DNA of 64,000 bases from assembly GCA_024637035.1 (NCBI GenBank), contig JAGXFW010000032.1, positions 1-64,000 of the forward strand. The letters run 5' to 3'. The position numbers and the translations under genes are program-made. The notes below the pieces were generated by a model. It did no database searches. It saw only the letters and a program-made list of their open reading frames with translations, and was not told where the DNA came from. The DNA is from Actinomycetes bacterium. GTDB lineage: Bacteria; Actinomycetota; Thermoleophilia; RBG-16-64-13. Of this stretch, positions 94 through 3,107 are shown piece by piece. Within the stretch, counting starts at the first letter, position 1. Every line of letters starts with the position of its first letter.

Positions 94-1401
94 CTACTTC
101 TTCTCCCACTTGAGCAGGTAGGCCACCTGGCTGAGTGTGCTCCCTTGGCGGATCTCCTCCCGCAGCCGGTTCTCCTTCTCGAGCACGTCCATCGCCCGGT
201 TGGTGTACTCGACCGCCTTCTCGCGCGGGATCACGCAGACCCCGTCGTCGTCACCGATGATCCAGTCGCCCGGGGCGATGGTGACGCCGGCTATGCGGAT
301 GGGCACGCCGATCTCTCCGAAGCCCTTGGGTTCGCCGGCGGTGGGGGTGACGTGGCTCGTGAAGAGGGGGAAGCCCAGGTCGCGGATGTCCCCGGTGTCG
401 CGTGCAGCGCCGTGGATCACCACTCCAGCCAAGCGGCGTTGTATGGCCGAGTTCGTAGCCAGTTCGCCCCAGACAGCCGGAGGCACGCCACCCGCGTCGA
501 TCACCAACACGTCACCCTCGTTGGCCACGTCGATCGCTTCAACCGGCTTCGCCCAGTCGCCGGGGTAGGTGCGCACCGTGACCGCGGGGCCGACCATCCG
601 GGCCCCGGGTGTGCGGGCCACCAGGCCGGGCAGATCGCCTGAACGGTGCAGCGCGTCGCTGACGTTGGCCGCGGACACGCGGGAGAGCACCTCACGCAGG
701 TCGGGGCCCGAGGCGCGCACGAAGTACTCCGACTCCACCGAGACCAGGTGCTGCAACGCATGCTTGATCTGGCGGGTCGCTTCCGTCGCGTCGGTGGCCT
801 TGGTGACCGCGCCGCCCACTACGACGATCGAGGCGCCGGCTTTCAAGGCCTCGGCGGCCGTCACGGAGTTGATGCCCCCTGCTACCGACACCGGTATGGA
901 GACAGCCTCCGCCACCTTGCGCAGCGTGTCGAACGGAGTCTTCCCCTCCATCTGCTCGTCGATGGCCACGTGGATACCGATGTACGAGGCACCCATCGCC
1001 TCCGCTTCTCGCGCTCGCTGCACGGGGTCTGCGACCTGTACCATGTCGACGATGATCTCGGCTCCGTAGTTGCGCCCGGCCTCCACGCACTCGCGGATAG
1101 TCGCATCGGAGGCCGCTCCCAAGACGCCCACCACCTGCGCACCGGCCTTCGCCGCGAACTCGACTTCGGCCCGACCGGCGTCCATGGTCTTCATGTCCGC
1201 GACGATGGTCTTCTCGGGCCAACGCGCCCGCAGTGCGCGCACCGCCTCCAAGCCTTCACTCTTGATGAGGGGCGTGCCCGCTTCGAGCCAGTCGGCTCCA
1301 CCGAGGACCGCCTCTTCCGCGACCTTCAGCGCGCGAGGCAGGTCGACGAAGTCGAGGGCGATCTGGAGCTTCGGACCGGATGTACCACGATCGGCGCTCA
1401 C
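94..1401 (-). CDS. Fused 3-hexulose-6-phosphate synthase / RraA-like protein
   Basis: A 435-residue two-domain protein. Residues about 10-215 are an HPS-type TIM barrel of the OMP decarboxylase superfamily, with the DMKTMD motif (69-74, the DxKxxD active site), AGGIN (174-178) and GGA (196-198). HPS condenses formaldehyde with ribulose 5-phosphate, or runs in reverse to make ribulose 5-phosphate. Residues about 225-420 are an RraA/HMG-aldolase-like domain with GELATNSA (312-319), R334-D335 and GDDDG (383-387). The same fusion is known from archaea and some anaerobes. The partner isomerase PHI is not in the window, so the physiological reaction is open. The GTG start shares 4 bases with the stop of the upstream gene, so the two are translationally coupled. 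Confidence 0.88.
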   Translation of the reverse strand: MSADRGTSGPKLQIALDFVDLPRALKVAEEAVLGGADWLEAGTPLIKSEGLEAVRALRARWPEKTIVADMKTMDAGRAEVEFAAKAGAQVVGVLGAASDATIRECVEAGRNYGAEIIVDMVQVADPVQRAREAEAMGASYIGIHVAIDEQMEGKTPFDTLRKVAEAVSIPVSVAGGINSVTAAEALKAGASIVVVGGAVTKATDATEATRQIKHALQHLVSVESEYFVRASGPDLREVLSRVSAANVSDALHRSGDLPGLVARTPGARMVGPAVTVRTYPGDWAKPVEAIDVANEGDVLVIDAGGVPPAVWGELATNSAIQRRLAGVVIHGAARDTGDIRDLGFPLFTSHVTPTAGEPKGFGEIGVPIRIAGVTIAPGDWIIGDDDGVCVIPREKAVEYTNRAMDVLEKENRLREEIRQGSTLSQVAYLLKWEKK

Positions 1402-3005
1402 TCCATGACCCCCATGAACTGCGCGACGATCCGTCTATCGCGGGGTCGGCTGTCGAAGCAGACGAACACCGCCTCTTGCCAGGTGCCAAGCGTCAGGCGT
1501 CCCTCGGTGAAGGGGATGACCAGGGAAGGACCGAGGAGACCGGCTCTCACGTGAGAGTGGCCGTTCCCATCGGCGAGCAACAGGTTGTGGCGGTAGGGGT
1601 CGTCAGCCGGCACGATGCGGGCGAACAGCTGCTGGAAGTCGTGCACGACGCCGGGCTCGAACTCCAAGGTGGTGACGGCGCCGGTGGCCCCGGGCGCGAA
1701 GACGGTCACGGTACCGGCCGTGAGGTCGCTCTCCCGCAGGAGTCGGTTGAGGTGTTGGGTGATGTCGATGACGTCGCCCTCGCCTTGGGTCGAGAAGGAT
1801 ATGGTGCGCGTGAGTACGGTCAGGTCGCCCGTCACGGCTTGGCGGGCTCTCTCTTTCGTGATGGTCATGACGTTCTCCATTCTGTCGAGGAGCGACTCGG
1901 GCAGGTCGGCGCGACGGCGGACGAGGTCGAGTGTCGCGGCGCCGAGGGTGGTGTAGAGAGGTAGCAGGTCCGGGGTGCGTTCTTCGAGGGCGCGGAGGTG
2001 ACGTTCTATCGTGCCGACGTCGCCGCGGGCAAGGGGGCCGGTGAGAGCCGAGAGTGTGCCGCCGGCCGCGATGTTGTCCACGGCGCCACGGACCAAGGGA
2101 AGGAAGGCGTCGAGCACGTGCTCCTGAGGAAGGCCGCTCTCGAGGAACAGCCGTTCGGCGGCGGCCTCGAGGGTGACGAGGTAGTTGCTGGCCACCACGG
2201 CGGCCGCGTGGTAGAGAGCCCGGTCGCGCTCTTCGAGGCGGAACGGCCGCGCACCGAGCGCACGGGCCAGCCTGCCGGCGTAGGCGGACGCATCGTCCGC
2301 GGAAGCGGGATCCTGTGGGCCAGGGGTCAGCGCGATGGCGGCCCCACGCAGACGCTCGGGCCCGAGGGTGGGGTCGCTCAGGGTCTGTAGGGGGTGGAAC
2401 GAGAACGTCATGGCGCCCCGTGCCGCGCACGGAGCGAGCACGTCGGTGGATGTCGCCCCGCTCACGTGGGCGACCGCCCACCGGGTTCCATCGTGAGCCG
2501 GATCTCGCACCGCGTCGGCCAGCGCGGAGACGACCGAAGGCAACTCGGCGTCGGGGACCGCGAGGAGGAACAGCGGGGGAGGGGTGGGCTGTCCGCCTGA
2601 GCCCTGCCGTGCGGGCGGCCGAGGGGATGTCAAGCTCATCTGCGCGACCAGTTCCGAGAGCGTGTCGGAAGAGGGGATGCCGAGGAGCCCGGCGGCGCGG
2701 CTGCGCCCGGCCTCGGACCGTCCGGTATGTCCCACGAGCCGGGCACCGGCCGCTGAGAGAGCCAAGGCGATCGAGACGCCGGCCCGCCCGGCCCCGATGA
2801 GCGCGAAGCGAACGTCGTCGAGGCGGTCTGAGTCACCGCCGGCCGAAGCGCCCGGATCGTCCGGCCATGGCGTGCGCCGCCCTTCGGCCGTTTCGTGGGC
2901 GACCTGGGTGTTCCGGGGTGAGGGCGAAGAATCGTCGATGATGTGACCTTCCGTTCCAGTTCTGCGTTCAGATACCAGACATCGGTCGTGCTGTGCATGA
3001 CGCAC
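1398..3005 (-). CDS. Fused Rossmann/DUF2520 protein and YjbQ (UPF0047) domain
   Basis: One open frame joins two families normally found as separate proteins. The N-terminal part has a Rossmann motif, IGAGRAG (about 2806-2786), then a DUF2520 helical domain of the kind seen in putative NAD(P)-dependent oxidoreductases. The last about 150 residues are a complete YjbQ domain with FAPGATGAVTTLEFEPG, NGHSHVRAGLLGPS and TEGRLTLGTWQ; members of that family have thiamine-phosphate-synthase-like activity. No stop or good start separates the halves, although an internal ATG (ENVMTITK) lies at the junction. The frame stays open to 3257, but that would overlap the divergent promoter. The GTG at 3005 is a best guess, and the first about 60 residues look low in complexity. 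The stop overlaps the start of the HPS-RraA gene (GTGA). Confidence 0.75.
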   Translation of the reverse strand: MRHAQHDRCLVSERRTGTEGHIIDDSSPSPRNTQVAHETAEGRRTPWPDDPGASAGGDSDRLDDVRFALIGAGRAGVSIALALSAAGARLVGHTGRSEAGRSRAAGLLGIPSSDTLSELVAQMSLTSPRPPARQGSGGQPTPPPLFLLAVPDAELPSVVSALADAVRDPAHDGTRWAVAHVSGATSTDVLAPCAARGAMTFSFHPLQTLSDPTLGPERLRGAAIALTPGPQDPASADDASAYAGRLARALGARPFRLEERDRALYHAAAVVASNYLVTLEAAAERLFLESGLPQEHVLDAFLPLVRGAVDNIAAGGTLSALTGPLARGDVGTIERHLRALEERTPDLLPLYTTLGAATLDLVRRRADLPESLLDRMENVMTITKERARQAVTGDLTVLTRTISFSTQGEGDVIDITQHLNRLLRESDLTAGTVTVFAPGATGAVTTLEFEPGVVHDFQQLFARIVPADDPYRHNLLLADGNGHSHVRAGLLGPSLVIPFTEGRLTLGTWQEAVFVCFDSRPRDRRIVAQFMGVME

Positions 3006-3078
3006 CCATCCGGAGTGCGGGGCCGTCGCCGTTCGGTACACCTCGAGAACGTAGGCATCCAGGCTATGACCTGATATG

Positions 3079-3107
3079 AGGATAGCAGGCGTGGCTGGCG
3101 CGTTCAA
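3079..3107 (-). promoter_or_regulatory. Promoter of the DUF2520-YjbQ / HPS-RraA operon
   Basis: On the minus strand TTGAAC (3107-3102) is followed by a 17-base spacer and TATCCT (3084-3079), with an extended -10 TG at 3087-3086. This is a strong match to a housekeeping sigma promoter. Transcription would start near 3072, which argues that the protein begins downstream of that point. Confidence 0.65.

Follow-up and report, generated by a model that had tools for sequence, protein, structure and literature searches.

A fused hexulose-phosphate synthase/RraA-like protein probably replaces PanB in a pantothenate operon of Thermoleophilia and in other bacteria

The DNA analyzed here, referred to as the window, is a stretch of 64,000 nucleotides from an Actinomycetes bacterium of the Thermoleophilia (assembly GCA_024637035.1, contig JAGXFW010000032.1, positions 1 to 64,000). 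Two adjacent genes near its start encode fusion proteins. One joins a dehydrogenase-like DUF2520 half to a YjbQ half, and the other, HPS-RraA, joins a 3-hexulose-6-phosphate synthase (HPS) domain to an RraA-like aldolase domain. Sequence comparison indicates that the two genes are a pantothenate (vitamin B5) operon. The operon probably makes pantoate for vitamin B5 and coenzyme A (CoA), with HPS-RraA replacing PanB, the ketopantoate hydroxymethyltransferase; the reaction is inferred. HPS-RraA is probably an unrecognized ketopantoate-forming enzyme that uses formaldehyde. Pantothenate and CoA are indicated because of linkage to panC and panD, a pan-type leader RNA and mutual exclusion with PanB. 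In many lineages the synthesis of vitamin B5 and CoA seems possible although the textbook enzyme of the first committed step is missing.

Results

HPS-RraA and PanB alternate among genomes. A scan of the genomes of 84,980 species returned 402 stretches encoding HPS-RraA relatives, and the best 80 were taken further. These 80 belong to the Actinomycetota, Elusimicrobiota, Omnitrophota, Firestonebacteria, Desulfobacterales, Planctomycetota, Poribacteria, Nitrospirota and others; those outside the window's own family show 60-71% identity. Of 50 genomes with HPS-RraA, spread over some ten phyla, 48 contain PanC and only one a full-length PanB. Weak, partial matches to PF02548 (two near 30 bits, one at 21 bits; G063, G059) were not scored as PanB. 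The PanB-less genomes include metagenome-assembled genomes deposited as whole chromosomes (G068, G082). Planctomycetota were sampled separately, with 149 genomes evenly drawn, and 133 of these encode PanC: 47 have HPS-RraA only, 82 PanB only, one both and three neither (Fisher p ~4e-31, uncorrected for ancestry). On a PanC tree of 80 PanC-containing Planctomycetota, parsimony counts 17 switches of the label, and well-supported branches require at least 6. The 41 Thermoleophilia relatives contain HPS-RraA in 22 cases, PanB in 21 and both in 5, PanB being missing from 17 of the 22 HPS-RraA genomes. The three samples overlap slightly. Near-exclusive alternation with repeated switches of label is the pattern of non-orthologous displacement, and the displacement of PanB by HPS-RraA is strongly supported by these gene distributions.

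Gene order points to the same pathway. The order DUF2520-YjbQ-HPSRraA is found in all 14 HPS-RraA genomes sampled from the window's family, where it diverges from a UDG-tsaE-tsaB-rimI-tsaD cluster that is likewise conserved (these names rest on sequence similarity and our own reading). In most of the 14, panC lies just past HPS-RraA on the opposite strand. Among sister families, f3 has the order DUF2520-panC-YjbQ-HPSRraA and f6 the order panC-panD-YjbQ-HPSRraA. The slot of YjbQ-HPSRraA in such families is occupied by PanB in families f4, f5 and f7, which have the order DUF2520-panC-panB. One genome with PanB (G008) keeps DUF2520, followed by an Asp/Glu racemase and an amidohydrolase in place of YjbQ-HPSRraA. 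The original prediction of a single operon with a deliberate arrangement is borne out, as is the expected constant co-occurrence of DUF2520, YjbQ and HPS-RraA in related genomes.

Retention of PanC without PanB would also be expected if the PanB-less genomes imported pantoate or ketopantoate and HPS-RraA acted in a different step of CoA metabolism. Such import is most improbable, given that the genomes come from many unrelated phyla and include whole-chromosome assemblies, that a reductase-like DUF2520 gene is retained in the operon, and that HPS-RraA holds the exact place of PanB in the gene order.

The HPS-RraA gene (94..1401, reverse strand) has a GTG start and encodes 435 amino acids, comprising an OMPdecase/HUMPS domain and an RraA-like domain in Pfam; the product is the proposed ketopantoate-forming enzyme. 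It scores 588.8 bits against NCBIfam NF005442/PRK07028, slightly below the cut-off of 593, with residues 10-435 aligned to 4-429 of 430. The HPS domain, of the 3-hexulose-6-phosphate synthase/formaldehyde-lyase type (748..1374, residues 10-218), scores 221.4 bits against TIGR03128 (3-hexulose-6-phosphate synthase), above the cut-off of 200. The catalytic D-x-K-xx-D and related residues of 3-hexulose-6-phosphate synthase are present: D17, E40, D69-x-K71-xx-D74 and H144 are invariant in 55 sequences. The model of this half matches solved structures of 3-hexulose-6-phosphate synthase, with a Z score of 33.1 and 40% identity to 3ajx. The RraA-like aldolase domain (97..711, residues 231-435) matches PF03737 with 151 bits. 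Its invariant E313-x20-R334-D335 aligns to the D-x20-R-D site of HMG/CHA aldolase, with the R-D pair kept and E313 replacing D, and its model matches 3noj with a Z score of 27.0 and a root-mean-square deviation of 1.8 over 199 residues. The AlphaFold model of the whole protein has a mean predicted local distance difference test score of 93.4. Pfam gives no PF02548 (PanB) match in either fusion protein of the window; by sequence, HPS-RraA is not a member of the PanB family and resembles PanB in function at most. The HPS-RraA fusion already has a named family, contrary to the description of its domains as ones that usually occur alone.

These domains suggest a route to pantoate. The HPS half would cleave hexulose 6-phosphate, releasing formaldehyde along with ribulose 5-phosphate, or would capture formaldehyde. 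Splitting of hexulose 6-phosphate is the reverse of the textbook HPS reaction. The RraA half, acting as a metal-dependent 2-oxoacid aldolase, would join formaldehyde with 2-ketoisovalerate and so form ketopantoate with no need for tetrahydrofolate; the formaldehyde would presumably be handed over inside the fusion protein. The DUF2520 half would reduce ketopantoate to pantoate, which PanC would join to beta-alanine. E. coli PanB and YfaU catalyze the addition of 2-oxoacids to free formaldehyde (PMC10127515), and the title of reference 37 in PMC7610986 names a reaction of M. tuberculosis PanB that does not depend on tetrahydrofolate.

The role given to DUF2520 (1875..2822, reverse strand; Rossmann plus DUF2520, PF10727/PF10728) stems from structure and context. 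Its best fold match is 3d1l, a putative NADP oxidoreductase (Z score 23.2), and DUF2520 adjoins panC-panB in families f4, f5 and f7. It is proposed to be a ketopantoate reductase from this dehydrogenase fold and pan-operon context. PanG may be a DUF2520 protein. PanG is a ketopantoate reductase cited in PMC5449765.

YjbQ and 6-phospho-3-hexuloisomerase (PHI) appear to be alternative partners of HPS-RraA. The YjbQ/UPF0047 half (1401..1823, reverse strand) scores 88.9 bits against TIGR00149 (cut-off 67.75) and matches 1vph with a Z score of 21.0. It is of the subtype linked to HPS-RraA, which forms a clade of its own (98/90 support) that excludes the second YjbQ found in these genomes. YjbQ is a neighbor within 8 kb at 50 of the 80 HPS-RraA loci and stands directly upstream at 42; PHI stands directly upstream at 6, all recorded as Desulfobacterales, Desulfobaccales or Desulfobacca. 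Local YjbQ and PHI never occur together at one of these loci. At the genome level, full PHI is encoded in 10 of the 24 genomes that lack local YjbQ and in none of the 26 that have it. PHI is present in 46 of 53 Planctomycetota genomes with HPS-RraA versus 4 of 96 others. PHI could allow fructose 6-phosphate to feed HPS, and YjbQ may do the equivalent: because YjbQ occupies the slot that PHI has in other phyla, the HPS substrate may come from YjbQ by a route that does not involve PHI. The thiamine role originally suggested for YjbQ is not supported, as the family name alone points to it.

The partners suggest two other explanations for the link with PanB loss. The frequency and position of YjbQ at these loci, its separate clade and its fusion to DUF2520 in the window could mean that YjbQ is the PanB replacement and that HPS-RraA merely supplies formaldehyde or pentose phosphate. 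This is quite unlikely, as PanB is also absent where HPS-RraA has no local YjbQ (Planctomycetota, Desulfobacterota); YjbQ as the sole substitute for PanB is disfavored by these loci. Alternatively, HPS-RraA could serve the reverse ribulose monophosphate pathway and make pentose phosphate; RraA would then be a regulator or a side activity, and the link to PanB loss an inherited coincidence. The association of PHI with HPS-RraA in Planctomycetota and Desulfobacterota would fit such a function, as would the NCBI family name, which reads HPS/ribonuclease regulator. It is nevertheless unlikely in view of the pan-gene linkage, the pan-type leader RNA, the repeated alternation with PanB and the lack of PHI in the 41 Thermoleophilia relatives.

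Some HPS-RraA loci have other neighbors. A 121-amino-acid gene resembling QueD/6-pyruvoyl-tetrahydropterin synthase lies near HPS-RraA at six loci (L157, L164, L170, L171, L173, L174), directly upstream at L157, L170, L171 and L174, the slot of YjbQ or PHI elsewhere. Wood-Ljungdahl genes, including CdhD-like and methyltetrahydrofolate:corrinoid methyltransferase-like genes, surround YjbQ-HPSRraA in Omnitrophota and a Nitrospirota (L110, L142, L147, L155, L158, L160, L161, L163, L165). Elusimicrobia have an 8-oxoguanine DNA glycosylase-like gene near HPS-RraA (L111, L123, L125, L133, L135, L141).

The operon has a pan-type leader RNA. A 30-nucleotide element, GTCTGGTATC-hairpin-GAACyGGAAC, sits upstream of the operons of family f1, of panC in f6 and of DUF2520-panC-panB in f5. 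In the window the leader spans 2938..2988 (core 2953-2980, reverse strand) and scores 62.1 bits with model R1, built from a 29-sequence alignment. It folds into a stem of 11 pairs with two invariant bulged A's (alignment A16 and A37), and 98.7% of cells pair. Both sides have changed in two of the pairs, and sliding the partners destroyed the pairing. The published pan RNA motif (Weinberg et al. 2010, PMC2864571) lies 5' of pantothenate genes and has a stem from which two highly conserved A's bulge, and the leader has both features. The Rfam library gave no match to the leader even at permissive E-values, and the covariance model found no match in any other phylum among the loci examined. The 3' side of the leader extends into the ribosome-binding site and therefore suggests that the RNA acts by translational control. 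Upstream lies the promoter, TTGAAC-N17-TGCTATCCT (3079..3107, reverse strand), with TATCCT as its -10 element preceded by TG. The single clear promoter of the original prediction is kept in a congener (G001) despite a diverged spacer, though it was absent from the list produced by a strict consensus scan.

The fusion genes themselves are as first described, with both open reading frames at the given positions and their domains recovered by Pfam. The DUF2520-YjbQ frame (1398..2939, reverse strand, ~513 amino acids) runs through Rossmann-like, DUF2520 and UPF0047/YjbQ domains without a stop, and the predicted GTGA junction joins it to HPS-RraA, the GTG at 1401-1399 overlapping the TGA at 1400-1398. 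Neither a frameshift nor a missed stop separates the DUF2520 and YjbQ halves, and sequencing error is ruled out as the origin of the fusion, because the frame is also unbroken in G001 (84% identity) and in G005 (59%), a genome of another genus. The fusion is specific to this lineage of three genomes, the window's own genome (G000) being the third. Three further candidates with open frames of equal length (G009, G015, G016) proved to have separate frames. Other members of the family carry DUF2520 and YjbQ as separate adjoining genes, which in some cases overlap by ATGA, and the fusion can accordingly be taken as genuine but of recent origin.

A good Shine-Dalgarno sequence and an ATG for YjbQ (GGAG and ATG within GGAGAACrTCATG, 1866..1878, reverse strand) remain within the fusion frame of both the window genome and G001, and so free YjbQ may also be made in these two species. 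Because of this retained start, and because the second gene is translated separately, the proposed fixed 1:1 stoichiometry of the four domains finds no support. The natural start of the fusion has no ATG, GTG or TTG; at 2937-2952, GGAAGG is followed by ATC ATC in the window genome and ATT ATC in G001. The start is probably the ATC near 2942-2937 behind GGAAGG, which would make ATC or ATT a possible non-standard start codon. Positions 7-25 of the window are a Nextera transposase adaptor remnant, AGATGTGTATAAGAGACAG, followed by a repetitive stretch to ~93, an assembly end and not genome sequence. Because the contig begins with this remnant, any gene downstream of HPS-RraA is cut off in this assembly.

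Discussion

The results support the shared pathway guessed at in the original prediction in its general chemistry, cofactor and one-carbon metabolism; the pathway itself, pantothenate and CoA synthesis, was not reached at that stage. Several observations weigh against replacement of PanB by HPS-RraA. Outside the Thermoleophilia, panC and panD were not found within 8 kb of HPS-RraA at the 80 loci. Recognizable PHI was found in none of the 41 Thermoleophilia relatives, in which hexulose phosphate would need another source. The window genome, G001, G005, G024 and G034 contain both HPS-RraA and PanB, and the ketopantoate step may therefore be redundant in the window species. The gene-presence statistics are uncorrected for shared ancestry, a tree of PanC tracks species history only roughly, PanC itself may have been transferred, and the PanB-less genomes could use another, unseen enzyme.

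The PanB of the window genome is encoded on another contig (C5), beside an Lrp/AsnC-type regulator and away from pan genes. PanB copies of HPS-RraA genomes adjoin such a regulator (domain checked in L246, the C5 locus) or an aminotransferase (L253), and those of L246, L253 and L254 are not beside pan genes. It is possible that these copies serve another pathway.

A broader function for HPS-RraA can be considered. It would be a tetrahydrofolate-independent ketopantoate synthase that draws its one-carbon unit from a sugar phosphate by way of channelled formaldehyde, with YjbQ and PHI as alternative suppliers of the HPS substrate, and would be the general, as yet unrecognized stand-in for PanB among many anaerobes and candidate-phylum bacteria, perhaps also in methanogens. 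The evidence leaves this general proposal evenly balanced. Methanogens are perhaps included because the methanogen controls lack PanB and HPS-RraA is over the cut-off in one of 14 control genomes; the search found no PanB in the controls M. jannaschii, M. acetivorans and L. lactis.

A search of the open-access literature, which is weak evidence of novelty, found nothing joining HPS-RraA with pantothenate. If the proposed function is correct, a large family now named for a ribonuclease regulator gains a function, an apparent gap in the pantothenate pathway is closed in many uncultured phyla, and a folate-free biosynthetic use of formaldehyde is added. The unsolved YjbQ family, well represented among crystal structures, gains a concrete pathway to test.

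Finally, the system can be compared to those already known. The window protein has the full-length two-domain architecture of NF005442/PRK07028, 'bifunctional hexulose-6-phosphate synthase/ribonuclease regulator'. That name assigns the RraA half no role, whereas the family is tied here to pantothenate synthesis and PanB loss. PanB (PF02548) and HPS-RraA would share a product and do share an operon slot, with complementary distributions; however, their sequences do not match, and PanB uses 5,10-methylene-tetrahydrofolate, whereas the HPS half suggests that formaldehyde is used and that a sugar phosphate is its source. The RraA half has the fold and catalytic R-D of HMG/CHA aldolase (3noj) and RraA-like 2-oxoacid aldolases, but it has E in place of the acidic D, is fused to HPS, and is proposed to use formaldehyde as acceptor and 2-ketoisovalerate as donor. 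HPS-PHI fusions (NF041755, e.g. 9lj9) are 48% identical in the HPS half and share the chemistry of formaldehyde and ribulose 5-phosphate; their second domain is an isomerase, unlike the RraA aldolase of the window protein. The leader resembles the pan RNA motif in its bulged-A stem and pantothenate-gene setting, but the pan motif usually occurs in tandem, whereas the window leader is a single copy outside any matching Rfam family.

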